This document shows positions 5,424-15,571 of a DNA stretch of 30,192 bases, piece by piece (position 1 is the stretch's first letter; each line of letters begins with the position of its first letter). The notes beneath the pieces were generated by a model, which did no database searches, had not been told where the DNA came from, and saw only the letters and a list, made by a program, of their open reading frames with translations. The stretch is from a virus. Made by a program: the position numbers and the translations under genes. The stretch is from positions 1 to 30,192 of IMG/VR virus record IMGVR_UViG_3300001827_000016; one strand, given 5' to 3'.

Positions 5424-5816
5424 TTACTCCGGCTTATCAGGCCACACCACATCGTCAAGTGATGCATAAGAATCGGTTATGTCGCGCAGTGCCTGACGAT
5501 AGGCGGTACGTTCTGCGGTCATAGTAAGGTCGGACGATGCCCACCAGTCTGTTTCAGCGATACGGCGGTTACGCTCTTCGCGCAGACGCTTCAAAGGCTC
5601 TGCCGCGTTAAGCTCGGCTAGTTTATCTTCGACCGCGTTCCATGTAATGCCCTGCCAGTCATCATCTTCGTTTGACTCGATTGCCGTGCCGTTCTCATCT
5701 GAGCCTGTGACCACAGAGAACATGGTGTTAAACTCATAGGCATCGGTTGGCTCTCCGCGTAGAACCCACTGTAGGTCTGGATTTAATGCTGATATTGCGT
5801 CTGATACTGTTGCCAT
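5424..5816 (-). CDS. Tail fibre assembly chaperone-like protein (Phage_tail_APC type)
   Basis: A 130-residue protein with an acidic N-terminal half and a C-terminal segment REERNRRIAETDWWASSDLT followed by YRQALRDITDSYASLDDVVW and a final proline-rich WPDKPE. The R-x-x-R-x-x-x-L/I-x-x-(T/S)DW and YRQALRDI motifs are hallmarks of the Phage_tail_APC family, linked to tail fibre assembly. Its place within fibre genes fits this. It starts at the stop codon of the preceding C1q-type gene (TAATG). The role is inferred from the family; a chaperone-substrate pair cannot be assigned from sequence. Confidence 0.7.
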   Translation of the reverse strand: MATVSDAISALNPDLQWVLRGEPTDAYEFNTMFSVVTGSDENGTAIESNEDDDWQGITWNAVEDKLAELNAAEPLKRLREERNRRIAETDWWASSDLTMTAERTAYRQALRDITDSYASLDDVVWPDKPE

Positions 5817-6352
5817 TATTTAAGCCTTCTTCCCCAGCAATTGAAATTACTGTCGTTTGTATCCCATGAATCATAACTGTTATGATATCCCCAAAGAATT
5901 TTATCTCCTTGAGATAACGAAACAATTCTATGACATGAGGTGGTATAGCCATAATAGTTATTTCCTGCAAAGGCAGTATCAATCTGATTTGTACCGCTAC
6001 TTGATTTATGGTAGACGTACAAACCTCTGTATTGGTTTGTTGTTCCAAATTGAGTAACAACACAAAACTCATAAATTCCATCTGCCGGAGCTACCATAGC
6101 TCCATCTGACCCCATAAGACCAGCTTGATTGATAATAGTTGTCCTATAGCCTGAAGGACAAACAATGTTTGGACCTACGCCTTCATATCCAGCAGATTGA
6201 AAACCACTAACACCAGAGAATGAAAAAATCGGGTGGTTATTATCTAATAAAAAAGTTCCAGTTCCTGAAACATTGCCACTGTTGTCAATCGTCAGCGCGG
6301 TGTTCGAGTTTGTCGGGTCTTGAATCTCGGAGACTTTCAATATGCTGGTCAT
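5816..6352 (-). CDS. Small fibre protein, C1q-like candidate
   Basis: A 178-residue protein opening with the array leader (MTSILKVSEIQDPTNSNTAL, then TIDNSGNVSGTG). The body has aromatic and glycine positions of a C1q/TNF-like jelly roll: APADGIYEFCVVTQFG near the centre and LSQGDKILWGYHNSYDSW near the end. It pairs with the gene at 6830-7345, which has the same leader subtype (TALTID-S/N-SG) and a clearer C1q pattern. The start overlaps the preceding stop by four bases (ATGA). Likely a trimeric receptor-binding knob; the fold is a resemblance, not demonstrated. Confidence 0.6.
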   Translation of the reverse strand: MTSILKVSEIQDPTNSNTALTIDNSGNVSGTGTFLLDNNHPIFSFSGVSGFQSAGYEGVGPNIVCPSGYRTTIINQAGLMGSDGAMVAPADGIYEFCVVTQFGTTNQYRGLYVYHKSSSGTNQIDTAFAGNNYYGYTTSCHRIVSLSQGDKILWGYHNSYDSWDTNDSNFNCWGRRLK

Positions 6353-6825
6353 CCGCCTATCTCCATGGCTGTTAAATGTGCAGTCGGCGAAGCGTAACCA
6401 CTATAACTTGCGTTAAAATACACCGTAGTAGCGGAGCCTTGCGTTAGATACTGGACTTTATATGTTAAGGCAGATGTTGTTGCAGGTGAATCTAAATGAG
6501 CAAAACTTCCAGCACCGTATGTGCCGCCAGAGTTTGTATAAGAGTCCCCTCTATAAAAAAGAGATGTAGACCCCCTAACCAGTTGAGTTACCATCCCGTT
6601 TGAAGAGTTAGAACTACCTGTTCCATAATCAGCCATTATTAAGATTTTTGAAGAGGAGCTAGTAGGTGTTATTGTAACTGAAAGCCCTGTATCTACAAAA
6701 GATGTTGAAGTGGTTGATGGTGTTGAAGTTATTGTTGATTGAACAACCTGCAACACATGACCCGGAATATATATCCCGTTGCCGCTGGTCTTTTCATTTA
6801 TTGTATCTACATATAATGTTGACAT
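6349..6825 (-). CDS. Small fibre protein, 'SITPSSTSNKILV' family
   Basis: A 158-residue protein. The leader STLYVDTINEKTSGNGI is the array leader; the body has HVLQVVQSTITS, then TGLSVTITPTSSSSKILIMA, then FAHLDSPATTSALTYKVQYL, ending LTAMEIGG. It aligns over nearly its whole length with 4863-5420, and the middle and C-terminus match 12817-13377. It sits between two C1q-like genes. Ser/Thr-rich beta sequence suggests a virion surface domain. Only a weak AGG-type ribosome site is visible before the ATG. Confidence 0.65.
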   Translation of the reverse strand: MSTLYVDTINEKTSGNGIYIPGHVLQVVQSTITSTPSTTSTSFVDTGLSVTITPTSSSSKILIMADYGTGSSNSSNGMVTQLVRGSTSLFYRGDSYTNSGGTYGAGSFAHLDSPATTSALTYKVQYLTQGSATTVYFNASYSGYASPTAHLTAMEIGG

Positions 6826-6829
6826 CTTA

Positions 6830-7345
6830 TTAACCTATTAAGTAGCCTTGAAAGTGCGGCGTACCTTCGTCTGCGGTTGAATATTGGTACAAATACAAAT
6901 TAGCTACATTTACTCTAATATAATCGTTAGCTGTCATTTGTAATATAAATGATGTGTTAGCAGATAAATACGCAGAAGCATTAGTGTAAGCGTAAAATTC
7001 TCTAGCTATATCCCAAGTTGAAGCATCTGAACTGGTTTCAAAATTTACTACTATTGTTCCTGATGTTACATTACCATTAGATGCACAAGCAAAAGCATTT
7101 AGCATAAAACAATAAACTCCAGTTACAGGTGCTTGAAAATAATGATTGGTTGTATCGTAATGGTTTCCAGTATTAAATATTGTACTGTTAAATTGTAGTA
7201 CACCATTAATCCCGCCTTGCGTACCTATTTTTCTCACACAAAAAGCTGGCTTTGCTGGTGTAAGAATACGCCCACTGCTGTCAATCGTCAGCGCGGTTGT
7301 CCCTGCGGCGTTGTTAATCTGGTCTACATTTAATATCGAAGCCAT
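6830..7345 (-). CDS. Small fibre protein with C1q-like domain
   Basis: A 171-residue protein. Residues 1-30 are the array leader (MASILNVDQINNAAGTTAL plus TIDSSGRIL). From about residue 33 the pattern is that of C1q/TNF-like jelly rolls: AFCVRK, then LQFNSTIFNTGNHYDTTNHY, then FQAPVTGVYCFMLNAFA, then a late segment FILQMTANDYIRVNVANLYL, ending FQGYLIG. The N-x-G-x-x-Y-(D)…F-x-A-P-(V)-x-G-(V)Y-x-F signature is the part I rely on. C1q-like domains form trimers and bind surface ligands, which fits a receptor-binding tip. It follows a gene with a GPLT-type C-terminal domain. Confidence 0.65.
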   Translation of the reverse strand: MASILNVDQINNAAGTTALTIDSSGRILTPAKPAFCVRKIGTQGGINGVLQFNSTIFNTGNHYDTTNHYFQAPVTGVYCFMLNAFACASNGNVTSGTIVVNFETSSDASTWDIAREFYAYTNASAYLSANTSFILQMTANDYIRVNVANLYLYQYSTADEGTPHFQGYLIG

Positions 7346-7352
7346 GCCTGCC

Positions 7353-8081
7353 TCACAATATAGTCAAGTTACCGTTGACGGTAATCGAAGTTGATGTGCC
7401 AATGGTCAGTGGCCCAATAGCCAATGCGTTCTTGGTCGAGCCAATGGTTGTGTTCTGTGTTACGCTTTGGTCGTTGGTTCTAAACACCGCCGTATCCACC
7501 GTTGTATTAGTGGTCTGGAATGACGGCGCGGTTATCTCGCCTGCAAACGTGCCGCCAGTAGATGCCCCCACCGTATCGGTTACGGTAAATGCACGGTAAG
7601 CCCTGATAACAAGCTCGTCACTTGCCGCCGCACCAGACGCTAAAGTAATTGTATCGCCGTTGCTAGGTGTGTAATCCGTGCTGTCCAGATGCACACCATT
7701 CAAATATACATCCACATCATTGCCAGAGAAAGCTAAAACAGCACCGTTATAATCCGCACCTGTAAAAGCTGTCTGGCTGGCAGTTGCTACATACTTAAAC
7801 AACGCCATTGCATAGCTGGTAGGCTGGTCTACGGCGCGACCAAAAAAGCGCACGGTAATTACATCTAAGTTAGCTGGTGGGGCTGAGAAGGTCAGAGTGT
7901 TGCCGTATGCTGTGTACGCGGCAGAGGCTCCCGGTTCTTGGACCACGTTACCAATAGTCACGATAAGAGCTTCGCCACTCACAACCGACTGGGCAAGTGT
8001 GAACGCGGTAGTCGTTCCATCACCTGTAAAGGTCTGGTAGCTAATGTCGCCTACATTTGGGTCTATGCCTATATACGCCAT
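7353..8081 (-). CDS. Fibre protein with tandem beta domains and GPIT-type C-terminal domain
   Basis: A 242-residue protein starting MAYIGIDPNVGDISYQTFTG. Two related domains of about 70 residues follow: the first has FTGDGTTTAFTLAQSVVSGE and QEPGASAAYTAYGNTLTFSA; the second (about 90-165) has VDVYLNGVHLDSTDYTPSNG and a closing DELVIRAYRAF. The C-terminal 45 residues (FRTNDQSVTQNTTIGSTKNA, then GPLTIGTSTSITVNGNLTIL) match the C-terminus of the genes at 9260, 11491 and 13370. An in-frame ATG at 8117 exists, but the start at 8081 overlaps the previous stop (TAATG) and matches the paralogue MAYVG start at 12009. Likely a fibre or fibre-base subunit. Confidence 0.7.
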   Translation of the reverse strand: MAYIGIDPNVGDISYQTFTGDGTTTAFTLAQSVVSGEALIVTIGNVVQEPGASAAYTAYGNTLTFSAPPANLDVITVRFFGRAVDQPTSYAMALFKYVATASQTAFTGADYNGAVLAFSGNDVDVYLNGVHLDSTDYTPSNGDTITLASGAAASDELVIRAYRAFTVTDTVGASTGGTFAGEITAPSFQTTNTTVDTAVFRTNDQSVTQNTTIGSTKNALAIGPLTIGTSTSITVNGNLTIL

Positions 8082-8461
8082 TACGCTAGGTCTCCCATAA
8101 TTATAGCTCCGCCCCAACCATCAACCCATCCTGACCCATTACCGTAGACCAAGAAATCACACTTCCCTGTTCCAAAGTTTGCAGATAAATATTTTGATTT
8201 AGCCCAATCATCTGCGGAATTACCACATTGACTAGCCACTGCCCAATCATCATTAACCATACTTGCCGTGAAATCTACTTGACTTTGACCTACCGCTAAG
8301 TCTGTCAAAGAGGAACAGTTAAAGCTGTCTGGAATGCTCTGCGTTCCTTGCTGGTTTATGTCAAACCAAACCTTCGCACTACCGTTAATTACATAGGTAG
8401 TATCTACAGACTCGGTGCCTGCGTTGTTAGCCAGCGTTGTTAGTCTCAGTTCGCTTGCCAT
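8081..8461 (-). CDS. Small fibre protein, SLTD/HGDLA family, leader subtype x
   Basis: A 126-residue protein. Leader SELRLTTLANNAGTESVDTT, then YVINGSAKVWFDINQQGTQS, then the family core IPDSFNCSSLTDLAVGQSQV, a variable Gly/Asp/Trp-rich C-terminal part, and the ending IIMGDLA (others end HGDLA). The VxNGxAKxW leader form is shared with 10303-10677 and 12407-12814. It is the third gene of a y-z-x triplet (9260, 8868, 8461). Start and stop codons both overlap neighbours by one base (TAATG). I infer a fibre tip or decoration domain; biochemical role unknown. Confidence 0.65.
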   Translation of the reverse strand: MASELRLTTLANNAGTESVDTTYVINGSAKVWFDINQQGTQSIPDSFNCSSLTDLAVGQSQVDFTASMVNDDWAVASQCGNSADDWAKSKYLSANFGTGKCDFLVYGNGSGWVDGWGGAIIMGDLA

Positions 8462-8478
8462 TATGCTAGGTCTCCGTG
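8457..8478. repeat. Gene-junction repeat, 22 bp
   Basis: Plus strand GCCATTATGCTAGG followed by TCTCCGTG. It carries the last HGDLA codons and stop of the upstream gene and the ATG of the next gene. It is identical at 12403-12424; one base differs at 8864 and 12005. Confidence 0.8.
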
Positions 8479-8868
8479 ATTTGTAACGGACACACGGTCC
8501 ATGTCATAAGCGGTGTTAGAAAGATGACGAGTGTGGGGGTGCATTGCACTAGAAGTTGAGACAACCGTATCCGATGTTAATACTCCATAATATGTATTAT
8601 TCCCAACAACAGAGCCAGCTATACTATAATGTGCGCTAGACATATTGTTTGTGTATGTTACGGTCTGTCTGCCTGTCGTTACATCAGTTAGGCTAGATGC
8701 GTTTAGGCTATCATCTATAGCTGGTGTTCCTGTACCATCGTAACACGCCCAAGCCTTCGCCACCCCCTGCTGAAGTGACTGTGTCGCAGAGCCACCCTCG
8801 CTGGTAATCGTAATATCACCAGCCGATACAATACCCCGCAGTTCATCTACCTTTAAGATACTTGCCAT
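8461..8868 (-). CDS. Small fibre protein, SLTD/HGDLA family, leader subtype z
   Basis: A 135-residue protein. Leader SILKVDELRGIVSAGDITIT, then a linker with QSLQQGVAKAWACYDGTGTP, the core AIDDSLNASSLTDVTTGRQT, then TNNMSSAHYSIAG, a variable region with HPHTRHLSN, and the ending VTNHGDLA. The AGD(I/V)TIT leader form is shared only with 10677-11117. It is the middle gene of the y-z-x triplet. Both ends overlap neighbours by one base and carry the conserved junction repeat. Probably a virion surface domain; no catalytic motif is seen. Confidence 0.65.
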   Translation of the reverse strand: MASILKVDELRGIVSAGDITITSEGGSATQSLQQGVAKAWACYDGTGTPAIDDSLNASSLTDVTTGRQTVTYTNNMSSAHYSIAGSVVGNNTYYGVLTSDTVVSTSSAMHPHTRHLSNTAYDMDRVSVTNHGDLA

Positions 8869-8885
8869 TATGCGAGGTCTCCGTG
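8864..8885. repeat. Gene-junction repeat, 22 bp (one mismatch)
   Basis: Plus strand GCCATTATGCGAGG followed by TCTCCGTG; differs from the 8457 copy by one base (GCGAGG for GCTAGG). It spans the stop of the gene at 8868-9260 and the start of the next gene. Confidence 0.8.
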
Positions 8886-9260
8886 TGCTACTGCCGCAAT
8901 ATATGCGTCATCATTTTGGCCGTTTGCACCTACGTCTCTTGAATTTTCAGCGTATCTACCTGTAGTATCTGAACTAGCAATAACATATCTATTGTAGTTA
9001 TTAGTTCCCATAGTCCCTTCTTGTACTGGACTACTACTGCCTGTTACAGTATGTGATGCACTGCTCATACTATTTGTATAATTTCCATATAAACAGCCTG
9101 TTGCTCTGTCTGTGAAACTAGCAATATTGAAAGAGTCGGGAATACTGTTATCGCTCATATCAAACACTCCATGTGCTTTAACAGTTGTTTGCTTAGTCAA
9201 TGTAACCGGGTCGGTGCCGTTAGCGGCTACTAAGGTATCTACGTTCAACTGACTAGGCAT
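8868..9260 (-). CDS. Small fibre protein, SLTD/HGDLA family, leader subtype y
   Basis: A 130-residue protein. Leader SQLNVDTLVAANGTDPVTLT followed by KQTTVKAHGVFDMSDNSIPD, the core SFNIASFTDRATG, then YTNSMSSASHTVTGSSSP, a variable region and the ending AAVAHGDLA. The 'GT-x-P-(V/A)TLTKQ' leader is shared with 11114-11494 and 12009-12407. First gene of the second y-z-x triplet, just after the short GPIT-type gene at 9260-9451. It starts on that gene's stop (TAATG-type overlap). I infer a fibre domain with a variable, possibly receptor-facing C-terminal part. Confidence 0.65.
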   Translation of the reverse strand: MPSQLNVDTLVAANGTDPVTLTKQTTVKAHGVFDMSDNSIPDSFNIASFTDRATGCLYGNYTNSMSSASHTVTGSSSPVQEGTMGTNNYNRYVIASSDTTGRYAENSRDVGANGQNDDAYIAAVAHGDLA

Positions 9261-9451
9261 TAAACAATACTCCAGTAACCGTTAACAGTCACAGTTGCGT
9301 TCTGCGTAATCGGCCCTGCCGATACGCCATTCTGGTCAGCATCAATGGTAAAGTCCGTGGATATCGTATTGCCGTTACGGCGCACGATATTCTCGTCCTT
9401 CGACTCTTCTTGATTATTGACTAAGTCAGGATGTAGCTTGCTTAGAGCCAT
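9260..9451 (-). CDS. Short GPIT-type fibre protein
   Basis: A 63-residue protein starting MALSKLHPDLVNNQEESKDE. The second half (FTIDADQNGVSAGPITQNAT, then VTVNGYWSIV) matches the C-terminal domains of 7353-8081, 11491-12009 and 13370-13582. The MALS opening is shared with 13370-13582. An AGAAGGG ribosome site precedes the ATG. It heads a set of three SLTD-family genes, so it may be the shared base on which those proteins assemble; that link is inference from gene order. Confidence 0.65.
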   Translation of the reverse strand: MALSKLHPDLVNNQEESKDENIVRRNGNTISTDFTIDADQNGVSAGPITQNATVTVNGYWSIV

Positions 9452-9463
9452 AACCCTTCTCCA

Positions 9464-9835
9464 TTAGCTGGAGTAAGGGCTAGCACCCAATGTGTCTGAA
9501 TCCCAAGCGGCTTTCAGTTCAGCAATGGTTGAGGCATCGGCAATAGCAGAAGCGTCTGTCGCATCACGAAGCGCATTCTTAGCAGAAGCAATAGCAGTTG
9601 TGCTGTTGCCTTCTTCCAATGCCTTCATCAACTCAACGTCCTTTGCTTCTAACAAAGGCTTACGCACTTCACGGATTTTATCCTTGAAGATTTCCTTTGC
9701 CTTGTCCATGTCCTCAGAAATTACCGAGCCGTTCAGTGTCCACGCGCCGCGAAAATCACGGTTTGCTGGCACAGTTGCTGACGCGGCATCAATCTGATTG
9801 CCTTCTTTGTCAACAATATATGTAGTTACAGCCAT
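9464..9835 (-). CDS. Tail-chaperone-like alpha-helical protein
   Basis: A 123-residue protein. The N-terminal part TTYIVDKEGNQIDAASATVP is followed by NRDFRGAWTLNGSVISEDMD and a long charged helix (KAKEIFKDKIREVRKPLLEA, KDVELMKALEEGN), then an Ala-rich tail. I recall the FRGAW…DM-x-KA-x-x-I-x-x-x-x-IR-x-x-R-x-PLL arrangement from small proteins next to phage tail fibre genes, often annotated as tail assembly chaperone-like. The helical, charged make-up contrasts with the beta-rich neighbours, fitting an assembly factor. An AGGAGT ribosome site precedes the start. Function is inferred. Confidence 0.6.
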   Translation of the reverse strand: MAVTTYIVDKEGNQIDAASATVPANRDFRGAWTLNGSVISEDMDKAKEIFKDKIREVRKPLLEAKDVELMKALEEGNSTTAIASAKNALRDATDASAIADASTIAELKAAWDSDTLGASPYSS

Positions 9836-9844
9836 TCTTTACTC

Positions 9845-10303
9845 CTATGCTGATATTTCATTTGAAATGCGCCATGCATTTCGCCATTCCCGCGTCTGCG
9901 GTAATTGCTCTTTACGACATATTACCATCTTTGGACGGTTGCCGCTATTCCAATCCTGCCAAACGCTTTGTGGGCAGTCCTTGAGAATTAAGTATTCGAT
10001 GGCTTCCTCTTCGGTCATAGCTGGCACAGGCTCAGTCTCATGCAATAGATAGCCACGAGTATGCTTCTTAAAGTCTGGCCGGGCTTCATCCTTTGCCAGT
10101 TCGTGATACACCCACACAGGCGGTAAGATGCCGCCCTGTAAAGCACAGGCCATCCAATTTGGGTCAGGCACAAGTATCTTGGCGCACTCATCAATGCTGT
10201 CCTCATACACCACACGGTAGTCTGACTGATGGGCTTCTAGGTTTTCCTTTGCCCAGCACAGTCTATCCCAGAGATGTGTGCCTTGAAATTCAGGTGTTTG
10301 CAT
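9845..10303 (-). CDS. Conserved protein of unknown function within the fibre array
   Basis: A 152-residue protein, soluble, rich in W, E, H and R and unlike its beta-rich neighbours. Notable segments are CWAKENLEAHQSDYRVVYED, KILVPDPNWMACALQG, YHELAKDEARPDFKKHTRGY, EEEAIEYLILKDCPQSVW and a C-terminal RKEQLPQTREWRNAWRIS. I have an impression of similar proteins next to marine phage fibre genes but do not recognise a family. Placed next to a chaperone-like gene, it could be an assembly factor. Its ATG overlaps the stop of the SLTD gene upstream, within a copy of the junction repeat. Confidence 0.6.
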   Translation of the reverse strand: MQTPEFQGTHLWDRLCWAKENLEAHQSDYRVVYEDSIDECAKILVPDPNWMACALQGGILPPVWVYHELAKDEARPDFKKHTRGYLLHETEPVPAMTEEEAIEYLILKDCPQSVWQDWNSGNRPKMVICRKEQLPQTREWRNAWRISNEISA

Positions 10304-10320
10304 TATGCTAGGTCTCCGTG
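10300..10320. repeat. Gene-junction repeat
   Basis: Plus strand GCATTATGCTAGG followed by TCTCCGTG, identical to the 8457 copy from CATTATG onward. Here the downstream gene is not a fibre paralogue but the unknown protein at 9845-10303, so the repeat belongs to the 3' end of the SLTD gene rather than to the start of the next one. Confidence 0.75.
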
Positions 10321-10677
10321 TATTCCTGTAGAAGTAACTTCCGCATCCAAAGCAGTAGCATTACTTGGGTATCTGCTTAATATGTCGTAATCAGATGTGG
10401 TTAAAGCTCCGCTACCAGACGGCCCAATACAACGCCAATCGCTCTCACCTATAAGCAACCCATAATTTACATTATTCATACTGTTGGTAATTGCTATAGT
10501 ATAATCACCCGTACCATTATCCGTTAAACTTGACGCAGATAAGCTGTCAAGAATTGCGGCTGTTCCACTGCCTATAAATCTAACCCAGTGTTTTGCTACA
10601 CCCTCCACAACATAGCTGGTGGATATATCAGCACCAGCACCTGTCTCGATTGTATCTGCTATAATCTTGCCAGCCAT
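10303..10677 (-). CDS. Small fibre protein, SLTD/HGDLA family, leader subtype x
   Basis: A 124-residue protein. Leader GKIIADTIETGAGADISTSY, then VVEGVAKHWVRFIGSGTAAI, the core LDSLSASSLTDNGTGDYTIA, then TNSMNNVNYGLLIG, a variable region, and the ending STGIHGDLA. The V-(V/I)-x-G-x-AK-x-W leader form matches 8081-8461 and 12407-12814. It is the third gene of the first y-z-x triplet (11494, 11117, 10677). Likely a tail fibre tip subunit; only the family resemblance within this window supports this. Confidence 0.65.
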   Translation of the reverse strand: MAGKIIADTIETGAGADISTSYVVEGVAKHWVRFIGSGTAAILDSLSASSLTDNGTGDYTIAITNSMNNVNYGLLIGESDWRCIGPSGSGALTTSDYDILSRYPSNATALDAEVTSTGIHGDLA

Positions 10678-11117
10678 TATGCTAACTCCGATATTTTGCC
10701 AAAGTAATTTCCATCAAGGTCATGAGCCGCACCATCTTGCGACCCATGAGAACCATAAAAATATCGCATACGAATTGTACTTGTGGCGTTGTTTAAGTGA
10801 TGTTGACTTGTATCATTTCCAGCCCTTTGATATCCAGACGCTTCACCACCGCCTCGACTATTCCACGGCAGGCTGATAACCATTCTGTCTGTTGCAGAAG
10901 CAGAGTTATTGGTAAAGGTCATAGTAAAATCACCAGTGCCATTATCTGTTAATGATGATTGGTTAAAACTTCCGTTTTGACTTGAGTTATACGCATCATA
11001 GTTAGTCCATCCTGTGCATATACCTTCTTGCAGTTTCATAGTAGAAGTACCAGACGTAATCGTCACATCGCCAGCAGAAGCCTTGCCAGTAAGTTTGTTT
11101 GTAATAATCTCACTCAT
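10677..11117 (-). CDS. Small fibre protein, SLTD family, leader subtype z
   Basis: A 146-residue protein starting MSEIITNKLTGKASAGDVTI. Then a linker with MKLQEGICTGWTNYDAYNSS, the core GSFNQSSLTDNGTGDFTMTF, a variable region containing WNSRGGGEASGYQ, and the ending NYFGKISELA instead of HGDLA. An in-frame start at 11189 is possible, but the ATG at 11117 gives a four-base ATGA overlap with the preceding gene and the standard leader. It shares the AGDVTIT leader with 8461-8868, each being the middle gene of a triplet. The loss of HGDLA matches a degenerate junction at its 3' end. Confidence 0.65.
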   Translation of the reverse strand: MSEIITNKLTGKASAGDVTITSGTSTMKLQEGICTGWTNYDAYNSSQNGSFNQSSLTDNGTGDFTMTFTNNSASATDRMVISLPWNSRGGGEASGYQRAGNDTSQHHLNNATSTIRMRYFYGSHGSQDGAAHDLDGNYFGKISELA

Positions 11118-11494
11118 GCTAGGTCTCCGTGAATTTGACTTATTGCATATGCAAAATCTTCTGCCGCAAGAGTGTCCGTCCGAAAACATTTCATATCAAC
11201 CTCTGAGGTTGTTATTGTGGAACCGGGACAAGAAACAGTCCGTCCAGAGTTTGCAGTTGAAATGTTGCCACTTGCTACGGGGGAATAATTAGCGGTACTC
11301 ATAGTTGATGAAAATGTTAATTTGTAGTTAGACAACCCAACATCCGTCAAAGTGCTAATATTAAAACTATCCCGTAAATTTGCTGTGCTTGTGCCGTCAA
11401 TATTTGCCCACGCCTTTGCCGCACTCTGCTTAGTCAGCGTGACAGGGCTACTGCCATTTGCCGCTACGATTGTATCTGCTTTTAATGTACTCAT
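11114..11494 (-). CDS. Small fibre protein, SLTD/HGDLA family, leader subtype y
   Basis: A 126-residue protein. Leader STLKADTIVAANGSSPVTLT and KQSAAKAWANIDGTSTANLR, the core DSFNISTLTDVGLSNYKLTF, then SSTMSTANYSPVASG, a variable region and the ending AISQIHGDLA. The leader closely matches 12009-12407 (TLTKQSAAK) and 8868-9260. It is the first gene of the first y-z-x triplet. Both ends overlap neighbours by four bases (ATGA). Role inferred as a fibre domain with a variable distal half. Confidence 0.65.
   Translation of the reverse strand: MSTLKADTIVAANGSSPVTLTKQSAAKAWANIDGTSTANLRDSFNISTLTDVGLSNYKLTFSSTMSTANYSPVASGNISTANSGRTVSCPGSTITTSEVDMKCFRTDTLAAEDFAYAISQIHGDLA
11115..11131. repeat. Gene-junction repeat, shortened
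   Basis: Plus strand CATGCTAGGTCTCCGTG. Here the stop is TGA within ATGA rather than TAA within TAATG, but GCTAGGTCTCCGTG is unchanged, so the HGDLA codons are kept base for base. Confidence 0.7.
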
Positions 11495-12009
11495 AGCGTC
11501 ACCAATGTCCCGCCTGTGTTAACCGTTACTGTAACACCTGTTGCCACTGTTATAGGGCCTGTGACAGAAGCATTTTCTGTCGCCGCAATAGTGACATTGT
11601 TAGATACAGTTTGCTCATTGATTTGAAACATTTCGGTCTTTGTCTTGTCAGTTGAAGTTGTGAACTTCGTGCCTGTCACCGTACTACTAAATGTACCTGT
11701 GGTTGCCGCTAACGCCTGATTGGCATCATGCTCTAACCTTGTTGTGACTTCTGCCAAGCCACGGTAAATCACATATATGTTACCCGTACCTGTCTGCGGA
11801 GCTTCAGTAAAGGTCAGCGTAGTACCCGTAGCGGTATATGATTTACCAGAACCCGGCTCCTGTTGCAGGTTGTCAACAAACACTTCCAACTCTTCGCCTG
11901 TGTTCACGGCACGGTTAAGTGTGAACACGGTTGTCGAACCATCGCCGTTGAAACTCTGGCTAGTGACCTTCGTTAACTGCTTCTGTGGTTGTGCGCCTAC
12001 ATATGCCAT
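11491..12009 (-). CDS. Fibre protein with one beta domain and GPIT-type C-terminal domain
   Basis: A 172-residue protein starting MAYVGAQPQKQLTKVTSQSF. The first domain has NGDGSTTVFTLNRAVNTGEE and QEPGSGKSYTATGTTLTFTE, the same pattern as domain 1 of 7353-8081. A linker with an Ala/Thr-rich segment follows, and the C-terminus (FQINEQTVSNNVTIAATENA, then GPITVATGVTVTVNTGGTL) is the GPIT-type domain. Compared with 7353-8081 it lacks the second 70-residue domain. It heads the first y-z-x triplet. Likely a fibre base or adaptor; confident as a paralogue, uncertain in role. Confidence 0.7.
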   Translation of the reverse strand: MAYVGAQPQKQLTKVTSQSFNGDGSTTVFTLNRAVNTGEELEVFVDNLQQEPGSGKSYTATGTTLTFTEAPQTGTGNIYVIYRGLAEVTTRLEHDANQALAATTGTFSSTVTGTKFTTSTDKTKTEMFQINEQTVSNNVTIAATENASVTGPITVATGVTVTVNTGGTLVTL

Positions 12010-12026
12010 TATGCGAGGTCTCCGTG
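12005..12026. repeat. Gene-junction repeat, 22 bp (one mismatch)
   Basis: Plus strand GCCATTATGCGAGG followed by TCTCCGTG, identical to the 8864 copy. It joins an SLTD-family gene to a gene of another family (MAYVG type), so the repeat tracks the 3' end of SLTD genes plus a shared start context. Confidence 0.8.
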
Positions 12027-12407
12027 CAACAATGTAAAGTTAAACTTTTGGTCATAATTTGTGCTACCGTTGCCCATATCAACCACATCAACAGGATATT
12101 GGCCTGTGTTAAAAGTACCACCTGCATCCCTTTTGAAAGCAATTCCCCTTCTATTGGAATCTCCGCTATCGTGATTTGATAATCCTGTAACAGCAACATC
12201 ACTTGTAGAACTTACGCTGTTAGTCAGTGACGTAGTGAAATTTCCTGTAGAATCGTCACTTACACTGCTTACATTGAAGCTACCAGTAATGGCAGGGGTT
12301 TCTTGATTATATTGAAGCCATTGTTTAGCCGCACTCTGCTTGGTAAGAGTAGCAGGGCTGGTGCCATCGCTGGCGGCAATTGTATCTACATACATTTCTG
12401 ATGCCAT
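12009..12407 (-). CDS. Small fibre protein, SLTD/HGDLA family, leader subtype y
   Basis: A 132-residue protein. Leader SEMYVDTIAASDGTSPATLT and KQSAAKQWLQYNQETPAITG, the core SFNVSSVSDDSTGNFTTSLT, then NSVSSTSDVAVTG, a variable region with RRGIAFKRDAGG, and the ending FTLLHGDLA. TLTKQSAAK is shared with 11114-11494. It precedes the MAYVG-type gene and follows a subtype x gene, so it is outside the ordered y-z-x triplets. Both ends overlap neighbours by one base. Confidence 0.65.
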   Translation of the reverse strand: MASEMYVDTIAASDGTSPATLTKQSAAKQWLQYNQETPAITGSFNVSSVSDDSTGNFTTSLTNSVSSTSDVAVTGLSNHDSGDSNRRGIAFKRDAGGTFNTGQYPVDVVDMGNGSTNYDQKFNFTLLHGDLA

Positions 12408-12424
12408 TATGCTAGGTCTCCGTG
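12403..12424. repeat. Gene-junction repeat, 22 bp
   Basis: Plus strand GCCATTATGCTAGG followed by TCTCCGTG, identical to the copy at 8457-8478 although the two lie about 4 kb apart and join different gene pairs. Confidence 0.8.
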
Positions 12425-12814
12425 TACTACTAATTTCTGATTGGGATAATCATACAGCGACCATGATGTTCCAGCACCTGCCCCTGAATAACCATACGCC
12501 ATTTTTGTTAGTGCTGTTGTTTGACCAAAGATAGAACAAATATTCGCACCAAAATTTGAATTCGGGGTGCTACCATTAGAATTATCCATAGTTCCAGCGT
12601 GATATGCGTTATTAAAACTGTTTGTAAAATTAACGGTACACAAACCTGTTCCGTCATCCGTGCGAGAACTCTGGTTCAAGCTGTCATATTCAGTGTTTGT
12701 AGATGGGTCAAACCGTGTCCACATTTTCGCAGTACCATTGACCACATAATCCATGTCCACGGAACTCGTGCCAGCATTGTTCTGTAATGTATCTACTTTT
12801 ACAATACCAACCAT
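12407..12814 (-). CDS. Small fibre protein, SLTD/HGDLA family, leader subtype x
   Basis: A 135-residue protein starting MVGIVKVDTLQNNAGTSSVD. Then YVVNGTAKMWTRFDPSTNTE, the core YDSLNQSSRTDDGTGLCTVN, then FTNSFNNAYHAGTMDNSNG, a variable region with GAGAGTSWSLYDYPN, and the ending KLVVHGDLA. A start at 12865 is possible but would run through the preceding gene; the ATG at 12814 lies two bases after that gene's stop. Leader form matches 8081-8461 and 10303-10677. Likely a fibre tip subunit. Confidence 0.65.
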   Translation of the reverse strand: MVGIVKVDTLQNNAGTSSVDMDYVVNGTAKMWTRFDPSTNTEYDSLNQSSRTDDGTGLCTVNFTNSFNNAYHAGTMDNSNGSTPNSNFGANICSIFGQTTALTKMAYGYSGAGAGTSWSLYDYPNQKLVVHGDLA

Positions 12815-12816
12815 AA

Positions 12817-13377
12817 CTACCCCGCTATTTCTGTAACGCAAATGTGAGAAACGCCTCGTTCCCATTGATTGGTGTCTGTGCTACCAACAGTTTGATTCAA
12901 GTACCAGTTTACAGCACTGCCAAGTGCTTGATTTACACCAACCTTATATGTTACTTGCGAAGTTGTGCTTGGCGTATCAAAATAACTATAGACTGCTGTT
13001 TCTGGTGTAGAGCCAGCGTCTGCCGTATGATAGCTACGACTACTAGCCATAAGAATACCTACGTTTCTATTGCCAGCGGCAGGTGCAGATAACTTTGTGG
13101 AGTCTCTATAAAAAAACCAAACAGAGTTATAAATAGACGAATCGTCCGCCCATTCTCCGTTTACCATAGCTTCTATTTTAATAATGCTATTAGTAGATAC
13201 AGGGGTTATGTTAACAGCTAAAACGCTAATCTCTGTGTCAGTATTTGCCCCACAGCTAATCACTGATGTTGCATCAATCTGTGTGTACTGCGTTTGAATA
13301 ATACCGCCCTGCGGCATTAAAACCTTACTACCGCTAGTCTTAGGTGCAATCTCATCTACAAGTATCTTACTAGACAA
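12817..13377 (-). CDS. Small fibre protein, 'ITP…SKI' family, TTG start
   Basis: A 186-residue protein. Leader SSKILVDEIAPKTSGSKVLM is the array leader. The core (VNITPVSTNSIIKIEAMVNG, then YSYFDTPSTTSQVTYKVGVN) and the ending HICVTEIAG match 4863-5420 and 6349-6825. The start is TTG at 13377, eight bases before the end of the upstream gene, with GGAG about nine bases ahead; the next in-frame ATG would remove the conserved leader. Role inferred as a fibre surface domain. Confidence 0.65.
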   Translation of the reverse strand: MSSKILVDEIAPKTSGSKVLMPQGGIIQTQYTQIDATSVISCGANTDTEISVLAVNITPVSTNSIIKIEAMVNGEWADDSSIYNSVWFFYRDSTKLSAPAAGNRNVGILMASSRSYHTADAGSTPETAVYSYFDTPSTTSQVTYKVGVNQALGSAVNWYLNQTVGSTDTNQWERGVSHICVTEIAG

Positions 13378-13582
13378 CGGTTAGCACTCCATTAACAGTA
13401 ATCGTTGCAGAAATAGTTATAGGCCCAAACGCACCAGCGTTCTCCGTTGACGCAACAGTCAGCGCGGTATCAATGCTTGTAGCGTTGGTACGAAAAGGAT
13501 TGGTAGTTGTGCTAGCCAACATATCCTCGTTCTTAATACCGCCGTTCTTGAACTGGTTTGTGTCAATGGTGCTAAGAGCCAT
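13370..13582 (-). CDS. Short GPIT-type fibre protein
   Basis: A 70-residue protein starting MALSTIDTNQFKNGGIKNED. After a short linker (NPFRTNATSIDTALTVASTE) comes the GPIT-type domain NAGAFGPITISATITVNGVL. Same layout as 9260-9451 (MALS opening plus GPIT end). It is the first gene of the array in transcription order and starts on the stop codon of 13582-13911. The MALS-T-I-D-x-NQF opening is one I associate with N-terminal parts of marine phage fibre proteins, so this may be a split-off fibre N-terminus. Confidence 0.65.
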   Translation of the reverse strand: MALSTIDTNQFKNGGIKNEDMLASTTTNPFRTNATSIDTALTVASTENAGAFGPITISATITVNGVLTVV

Positions 13583-14521: not shown

Positions 14522-15571
14522 TTACTTCAGCTCAACGCTTAGATTTCCACCATTAATACGGAAGATATCCCCGGATGCAATTGTTTTTGACACATCCAAT
14601 GCGCCAATAAACAAGGTATTGCTTCCGTCAAACTTGAGCCTGTCGTTATCAGAAAGGGTGACTGCGGTGTCGAGTACAATTGCGTTCTGAGATGTAACAG
14701 TGGCAACGGTAACAAGGCCGCTAATACCAGTTCCTGTAACAACATCCCCAACAGCTATTGTCCCAACATTGTTGTCAACAGCAACATTTGTTGAGGCTGA
14801 AACCGCGCCGTTTACATCTGCTGTTGCAAAGTTTGCATCAGAAATAAATGCATGGGTAACTGTGTAACTAGCAATACCGCTTGATGGAGAAAACTCAATA
14901 TTGTCATCGTTGATGACTTTTTGAGCATCAGAAATAACTGTATCTGAAACAGAGTGTGATGCGGCGGTTGTGCTTGATGTGCCACGAGTACAGCCTGTTA
15001 AGATGCTTGTTCCTGTAAATGTCAAAGCTGTGTCATCTGCAATTGTAATGGCAGTGTCGAGAACTAAAGCATTCTGACTTGTAACTGTGGCAACACGAAC
15101 TGTACCAGTAATACCAGTGCCAGTAACAACCATGCCAACAGAAATGGTTCCTGAGTTTCCATCAACAGCTAAAGATGTTGAAGATGTAACTGCACCATTT
15201 GCGTCTGCTGTAGCCGTTCCGTCTTTGCCAGCATAAGTAATAATCTCTTGGTTGATTACTACAGTGCCTGTTGCAGGAAATGCTTCCGCATCTGATAACA
15301 CCAGCTCTGTGTCTGAAGCGCCAGCCGCGACAGCCAAAGTTGTCACGGACTGCTTCCAGTCTGCGGCGGTAACTTGCTGACGAGTATAATCAGCGTCCTC
15401 TGTAAGGATACTAACTTCAGTTAGGTTGCCGTTTTCAGCATTAGATACTGCGGTAGCCAATCCTACATATATGCTATTGCCCGGCGTGGCAAAGGAAAGA
15501 GAATCGTTCTTGAACAAGTAATCAAGAACTCGTCTTTCCAGATATGTGGTTGCCGCATTTGATGTTGCCAT
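14522..15571 (-). CDS. Tail or neck structural protein with two inserted modules
   Basis: A 349-residue protein. The opening TTYLERRVLDYLFKNDSLSF and then IYVGLATAVSNAENGNLTEV is typical of a phage structural family whose N-terminus reads 'LL-x-x-F…x-YVGL-x-T'. Residues 121-185 and 250-314 are two copies of the 65-residue module (ADANGAVTSSTSLAVDGNSG…; ADVNGAVSASTNVAVDNNVG…) also present once in the next gene. Removing both leaves about 220 residues, ending TLFIGALDVSKTIASGDIFR. A strong AAGGAG precedes the ATG. Structural role is likely; position in the virion uncertain. Confidence 0.7.
   Translation of the reverse strand: MATSNAATTYLERRVLDYLFKNDSLSFATPGNSIYVGLATAVSNAENGNLTEVSILTEDADYTRQQVTAADWKQSVTTLAVAAGASDTELVLSDAEAFPATGTVVINQEIITYAGKDGTATADANGAVTSSTSLAVDGNSGTISVGMVVTGTGITGTVRVATVTSQNALVLDTAITIADDTALTFTGTSILTGCTRGTSSTTAASHSVSDTVISDAQKVINDDNIEFSPSSGIASYTVTHAFISDANFATADVNGAVSASTNVAVDNNVGTIAVGDVVTGTGISGLVTVATVTSQNAIVLDTAVTLSDNDRLKFDGSNTLFIGALDVSKTIASGDIFRINGGNLSVELK
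14630..14824 (-). repeat. 65-residue beta module, copy 2
   Basis: Encodes residues 250-314 of the structural protein, with VVTGTGISGLVTVATVTSQN and AIVLDTAVTLSDND. The DNA shares long stretches with copy 1, for example around the VTSQNA-(L/I)-VLDTA codons. Confidence 0.75.
15017..15211 (-). repeat. 65-residue beta module, copy 1
   Basis: Encodes residues 121-185 of the structural protein, with VVTGTGITGTVRVATVTSQN and ALVLDTAITIADDTALTF. First in transcription order of the three copies. Confidence 0.75.

Follow-up and report, generated by a model that had tools for sequence, protein, structure and literature searches.

Slot-bound leaders and nearly slot-independent heads in a row of small phage tail genes

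Overview

The stretch of DNA considered here, hereafter the window, is the entire 30,192-base virus contig record IMGVR_UViG_3300001827_000016, from a marine phage, which may be a genome fragment. Genes for terminase, portal and capsid can be recognised in it, and small tail-appendage genes form a long series on its minus strand, eight of them encoding proteins of the SLTD family. Each SLTD protein is divided here into a leader, its first ~27-37 residues (a tip of ~10 residues plus a linker), and a head, its last ~100 residues. On the minus strand the order is x0, y0, GPIT, y1, z1, x1, A, B, short GPIT, y2, z2, x2, where GPIT denotes a gene with a GPIT-type C-terminal end. What the sequences establish is a fixed order of genes, a link between leader and slot, near independence of head and slot, sharp cassette borders, replacement of single slots, and a codon bias at the joint between genes. 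We consider it probable that the block specifies a multi-adhesin tail complex with slot-specific leaders and exchangeable heads.

Gene order in the window and its relatives

The initial annotation had described three leader subtypes, and these are present as claimed: TLTKQ in y, AGDVTIT or AGDITIT in z, and YVVEGVAKHW or YVINGSAKVW in x. The order y-z-x was likewise said to occur twice, each time behind a GPIT-ending gene, and it does (as set 1 and set 2, both encoded on the minus strand, with y, z and x proteins of ~130 amino acids each). In set 1, putative adaptor 1 (11491..12009, 172 amino acids), made of an N-terminal beta domain, a linker and the C-terminal GPIT end, is followed by y1 (11114..11494, leader MSTLKADTI..TLTKQ), z1 (10677..11117, leader MSEIITNKLTGK..AGDVTIT) and x1 (10303..10677, leader MAGKIIADTIE..YVVEGVAK), each leader being joined to a head. 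The z1 protein has the unusual end ..SELA, and a longer open reading frame (ORF) of z1, reaching 11189, is mechanical only. In set 2, putative adaptor 2 is a short form of 63 amino acids without the N-terminal domain (9260..9451), and it precedes y2 (8868..9260, leader MPSQLNVDTL..TLTKQ), z2 (8461..8868, leader MASILKVDEL..AGDITIT) and x2 (8081..8461, leader MASELRLTTL..YVINGSAK), again with a head each.

With y1 and two x2 proteins as queries (best 80 of 541 and best 80 of 289 relatives), a set of 172 loci including the window and phage HMO-2011 was collected; gene A served as query for a further scan (best 80 of 599). The 172 loci hold 702 SLTD ORFs, none of them with two domains. Clustering of the leaders without labels yields three main classes; the class names combine this clustering with hand-written patterns, and gene A loci were typed by the linker. 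Among 230 non-redundant runs, 115 consist of exactly three genes, and the order in these is y-z-x in 99, and a y-slot variant followed by z and x in 10 more. Once the tips are taken into account, 52 rows are y1-z1-x1 and 40 are y2-z2-x2; as far as y, z and x classes are assigned, the two sets are never combined within a listed row. The suggestion that y, z and x form an ordered set is supported.

Gene A (9845..10303, 152 amino acids), the conserved neighbour of the block, gives a second access to the order. In loci fetched by gene A alone, y-z-x lies directly upstream in 37 of 48 evaluable cases, a further seven being truncated at contig ends; counted together with the earlier loci, the figures are 96 of 138 for y-z-x, 22 for x alone and 9 for none. 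The ORF immediately ahead of y1 is GPIT-ending in 74 of 94 blocks, and the one ahead of y2 in 90 of 91. Gene A itself is well conserved (mean identity 80.8% among 94 blocks, and 85-94% in the best 80 of 599 loci) beside hypervariable heads. The record titled Dunaliella viridis virus SI2 contains a gene A match as well.

Leaders

The initial annotation explained the repeated order by duplication of a four-gene block, predicting a phylogeny in which y groups with y, z with z and x with x. Because leader and head conflict, separate trees of the two parts replaced a full-length tree, which for tail proteins of this kind blends two histories. The prediction holds in the leader tree and fails in the head tree, where the heads are scrambled over the slots. 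Linkers of one type are alike between the sets (identity 0.54-0.56 for y1-y2, 0.60-0.61 for z1-z2 and 0.42 for x1-x2), against 0.21-0.31 across types, and the tips are mostly slot-specific. With type labels, the leader tree needs two type changes, which is the minimum, a count that is partly circular since types are read off leaders. In the non-circular repeat with ordinal-position labels it needs 6 changes, against 150.4 +/- 5.2 after shuffling, and for 342 of 345 genes the closest leader from a different contig shares the ordinal position.

The leaders thus support a block duplication. It is an old one, common to dozens of contigs and HMO-2011, and no event of this genome. In Mel-JY33, a freshwater phage, there is just one GPIT-led row; of its three genes the first is y-like and the third x-like, which fits leader types older than the doubling. 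A recent duplication is likely elsewhere, judging from one locus (L079; 1591-2010 and 2387-2806) where the row reads y-z-x-z-x and the heads of the two z1 genes are almost identical.

Heads

The heads behave differently. Only 147 of 345 genes have their nearest head on another contig in the same position, and with ordinal-position labels the head tree needs 146 changes against 163.7 +/- 5.2 after shuffling. When same-slot relatives more than 70% identical are removed (n = 264), 168 slot changes remain, against 168.9 +/- 4.5 in shuffled trees. Mean head identity is 0.34-0.37, alike within and between slots. For the eight genes of the window, the best head match is always in another slot, at 38-48% identity in six cases and at 64% and 74% in two.

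Low identity of heads could also arise if heads diversified by local mutation, for example through a diversity-generating retroelement, with saturation giving a shuffled look. Head identity does average ~31% against 81% for gene A. However, full-length heads 93-100% identical are found on different leaders; for example, the x1 head of locus L025 equals the z1 head of locus L021 at 100%. No reverse transcriptase (PF00078) match was found in the 30,192-base record, itself possibly a fragment. We regard this explanation as extremely unlikely.

Ordinary exchange of whole tail-fibre genes at the same locus between related phages, without movement between slots, is a second alternative. It agrees with the fact that same-slot sharing is common: among near-identical heads (at least 80%), 42 of 77 pairs share a slot, compared with 0.17 at random. 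Yet 39 of 85 head pairs at least 85% identical sit on different leader classes (for 49 of 124 pairs in an extended set, the types are unlike), and the DNA breaks at the border of leader and head. This border was followed in 34 cross-class pairs with heads at least 88% identical in amino acids, one of which (L091 and L123) is a same-slot pair with a mis-read start. DNA identity is 0.85-0.93 from the K codon of the AK/AW joint onward and ends at the GDLA-stop; outside the head it is 0.49 and then 0.42 just upstream, and 0.50 and then 0.32 downstream, the level of unrelated controls. The upstream break lies within 8 nucleotides of the K codon in 32 of the 34 pairs. Unless they are assembly artefacts, the cross-slot pairs refute whole-gene exchange as the sole process, and we judge this alternative very unlikely.

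Breaks inside the head are absent from the sample: among 85 pairs similar in the C-terminal part, none had a dissimilar N-terminal part. An internal break at the conserved SLTD motif was considered and rejected on the same 0 of 85 pairs. Replacement of a single slot can be followed in 18 contig pairs, near-duplicates included, in which the head of one slot is at least 95% identical and that of another is below 60%, while the leader of the replaced slot is still 62-97% identical.

The 3′ joint

The GDLA end is present in 623 of 660 full proteins, and its codons are strongly biased. At 483 joints, GGA encodes the terminal G in 98%, GAC the D in 91% and GCA the A in 89%; in the remainder of these genes the shares are 22, 34 and 38%. 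At 471 of the 483, the stop and the start of the following gene overlap by 1 or 4 bases. The joint looks like a Shine-Dalgarno-like site (GGAGAC) combined with stop-start coupling. Since it would carry this element for the next, overlapping gene, a head could precede any leader. In phage Nsp-JY18, the first gene of the row, which does not overlap its neighbour, ends without GD.

Occupants of the z slot

The initial annotation also suggested that y, z and x might form a heterotrimer, that is, three chains of one fibre on the GPIT protein, with leaders assigning the places of the chains. Three main leader types, a constant order and one adaptor per set accord with such an arrangement, as do the single rows of three in Mel-JY33 and Nsp-JY18. 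A z protein stands between y and x in 68 rows of set 1 and 62 of set 2. However, 16 distinct listed cases have a non-SLTD protein in the z slot, a figure read from the list because the raw counts of replaced z slots (16 and 13) take in SLTD genes with odd leaders. These foreign proteins mostly start with MSE(V/I)KT(N/D)KI in set 1 and MAS(V/I)LKVEN in set 2, close to the z tips. Ten of them or their neighbours were tested, giving three S74-chaperone fibres, one C1q protein, three tail-assembly chaperones and three without a match. S74-chaperone and C1q folds make homotrimers. In addition, heads within one block are no closer than heads of different blocks (30.9 vs 30.1%), and of 15 block pairs with a near-identical head in common, nine share it in one slot only, two in two slots and four in all three. 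Foreign z-slot proteins and single-slot sharing both speak against an obligate y-z-x trimer, so that the heterotrimer is the less likely arrangement, and we rate it as unlikely.

Predicted structures

AlphaFold2 (AF2) monomer models were made for y1 and for GPIT adaptor 1. In the y1 model (predicted local distance difference test score, pLDDT, 81), leader residues 1-27 have no regular structure, and an eight-stranded head of ~100 amino acids follows, whose first strand begins at residue 28, the border of the cassette. The predicted head fold matches the C-terminal domain of the phiAB6 tailspike (Z 7.7), the Pam1 tailspike (6.9), the SLL-2 lectin (5.7) and R-pyocin fibres (5.0-5.1; R1 5.1), and BFVD contains many phage matches to the model, with E values down to 6e-9. 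No Pfam match to the head exceeded the cut-offs, and a PDB sequence search gave no match for the SLTD family. In the GPIT model (pLDDT 69), residues 14-84 match tailspike protein 4 (TSP4) of phage CBA120 (Z 8.7, root-mean-square deviation 1.8, 64 residues aligned). Scores for this one domain are comparable for portal or neck proteins of T5/DT57C (8.6-8.7), the N-terminus of T7 gp17 (7.5) and T4 gp10 (6.9). PDB sequence matches of the GPIT protein (antibodies and BclA, E at least 0.009) were dismissed as chance.

The proteins might instead decorate the virion surface or serve other structural purposes than receptor binding. The modest Z values of the head leave room for this, receptor binding by the heads being a putative role. 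On the other hand, all eight SLTD proteins of the window matched PHROG 11355 (tail fibre protein) in a profile search (E 0.0011 to 7e-18), the predicted adaptor fold is of the T7 gp17 or CBA120 TSP4 type, and fibre and chaperone genes are neighbours. A non-adhesive role is therefore improbable in our estimate.

A multi-adhesin block with exchangeable heads

The multi-adhesin complex proposed above would work as follows. GPIT proteins would be tail-docked adaptors that offer binding sites, and a leader, by its ~10-residue tip and linker, would plug each small adhesin, probably a homotrimer of y, z or x, into one set place. The head of ~100 residues, a predicted eight-stranded beta-sandwich, would contact the cell surface. 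Whole heads would be exchanged between slots, sets and phages as cassettes bounded by the AK/AW codons and the GDLA-stop, with a presumed effect on host range.

We put somewhat less than even weight on a wider proposal of combinatorial display, in which marine phages of differing backbones would fill six or more docking slots from one common pool of heads. The set on a virion would be drawn from this pool, the adhesins being reassorted slot by slot, and the conserved joints (AK/AW codons and the GGAGAC-stop-start element) would be kept as exchange sites.

Several observations count against the proposed complex. In the window, the upstream genes x0 and y0 break the order, standing behind a protein of another fold (12817-13377) as x-y, not as y-z-x. 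Before thinning, heads carry a weak slot signal (169 vs 178 +/- 4.5 changes; for the set label, 77 vs 89.7 +/- 4.3) and the weak position signal given above, and there is the same-slot excess of near-identical heads, which we read as descent. Some of the cross-slot head pairs share one event, and selection for viable products, instead of recombination at the joints, could explain why the cassette borders are exact. The head Z values are below 8 and could reflect merely a common sandwich, every structural claim is drawn from monomer models, and no binding partner of the leader was found. Finally, HMO-2011, a Puniceispirillum phage, is the sole isolate with both sets among 10 phage records matched.

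The proposed complex bears on the old question of how phages can shift host range quickly and still keep a working tail. Place and specificity would be cleanly separated, in that ~30 residues give the place and ~100 would give the target, and swappable heads could let phages remix what they adhere to. The slot code is legible from sequence, and repertoires of heads can be compared between marine phages whose hosts are mostly uncultured.

Other appendage genes of the window

The initial annotation missed three genes of the row, all on the minus strand. Upstream of adaptor 1 lie an extra y-type gene, y0 (12009..12407), whose leader type is also present in four other loci, and an extra x-type gene, x0 (12407..12817), whose head is 74% identical to the x1 head of one relative (L176). 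After set 2 comes a third GPIT-ending gene of 254 amino acids (7353..8117), which matches PHROG 18673 (tail fibre, E 8e-10). Together with 12817-13377 and a short GPIT ORF at 13370-13582, x0 and y0 resemble a third block in a different order. Gene B (9464..9835, minus strand, 123 amino acids) matches PHROG 20196.

Appendage genes at 5816-6352, 6349-6825, 6830-7345 and 12817-13377, one of them with C1q, start with the tips MTSILKVSEI, MSTLYVDTI, MASILNVDQI and MSSKILVDEI. Such SLTD-like tips on non-SLTD proteins are perhaps one common docking tag. A phage tail assembly chaperone (PF16778) is encoded at 5424-5816, and similar genes come after foreign z-slot proteins. The gene at 14522-15571 has a Pfam Gp80 match (fibre I of podophage GP4, E 4.5e-12).

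Spread among phages

HMO-2011 has the same layout as the window (GPIT, y1, z1 slot, x1, A, B, an extra SLTD gene, GPIT, y2, z2 slot, x2). It differs in that its z slots hold C1q and a 161-amino-acid protein without a Pfam match, with a tail-assembly-chaperone gene after each. Its block genes are annotated as tail fibre, tail-related, C1q or hypothetical. Mel-JY33 and Nsp-JY18 have one row of three and then A and B homologues, the preceding GPIT-ending gene having been read in Mel-JY33 only; by reading, a gene B homologue adjoins A in both of them and in HMO-2011. Two SLTD genes and a GPIT-like end are present in Vibrio 1.052. When genomes were scanned with one y1 protein, six distant loci emerged, five in metagenome-assembled genomes and one in Curvibacter delicatus. 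Gene A is 84% identical with that of HMO-2011, whereas the terminase of the window is closest, among 20 matches listed, to 023Pt_psg01, DSL-LC04 and HTVC027P/023P (52-57%), HMO-2011 not being among them. The module thus seems to move between phage backbones.

Comparison with known systems

In T-even phages, adhesins of the distal tail fibre are reportedly swapped at conserved motifs, in one fibre tip and without a row of paralogous slots. In marine metaviromic islands and cryoconite phages, host-recognition genes vary as modules on a constant genome (PMC3909814, PMC7468147); as far as the available excerpts of these papers go, variants are exchanged at one locus, without slot-coded leaders or movement of heads between neighbours. 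Papers on HMO-2011-type phages, in the excerpts available, say little or nothing about tail fibres (PMC6918029, PMC8528129, PMC9038755). The accessible text of open-licence papers contained no account of slot-specific leaders combined with swapped heads in phages of this kind, most subscription journals and supplements lying outside the search.

The closest system is the TSP1-4 cluster of Ackermannviridae (CBA120, Kuttervirus), in which several receptor-binding proteins are likewise clustered and modules occur on different slots with a border at a motif. According to the available excerpts, C-terminal receptor-binding modules of Kuttervirus tailspikes are found on different TSPs, with a conserved border motif and N-terminal parts fixed in place (PMC8432352), and XD-type domains of the TSP4 adaptor are docking sites for other trimeric spikes (PMC8825819). 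The modelled GPIT domain may be of this XD type, although portal or neck proteins and the T7 gp17 N-terminus score similarly. Kuttervirus tailspikes follow the same logic as the block of the window on a small scale, with large beta-helix proteins and only some exchanges of TSP1/TSP3 to TSP4 in one genus. In contrast, the block described here consists of single-domain proteins of ~130 amino acids, whose modelled head is not a beta-helix, in two sets of three slots; its heads carry almost no slot signal, its 3′ joint contains a likely translation-coupling element, and it occurs in marine and freshwater phages.

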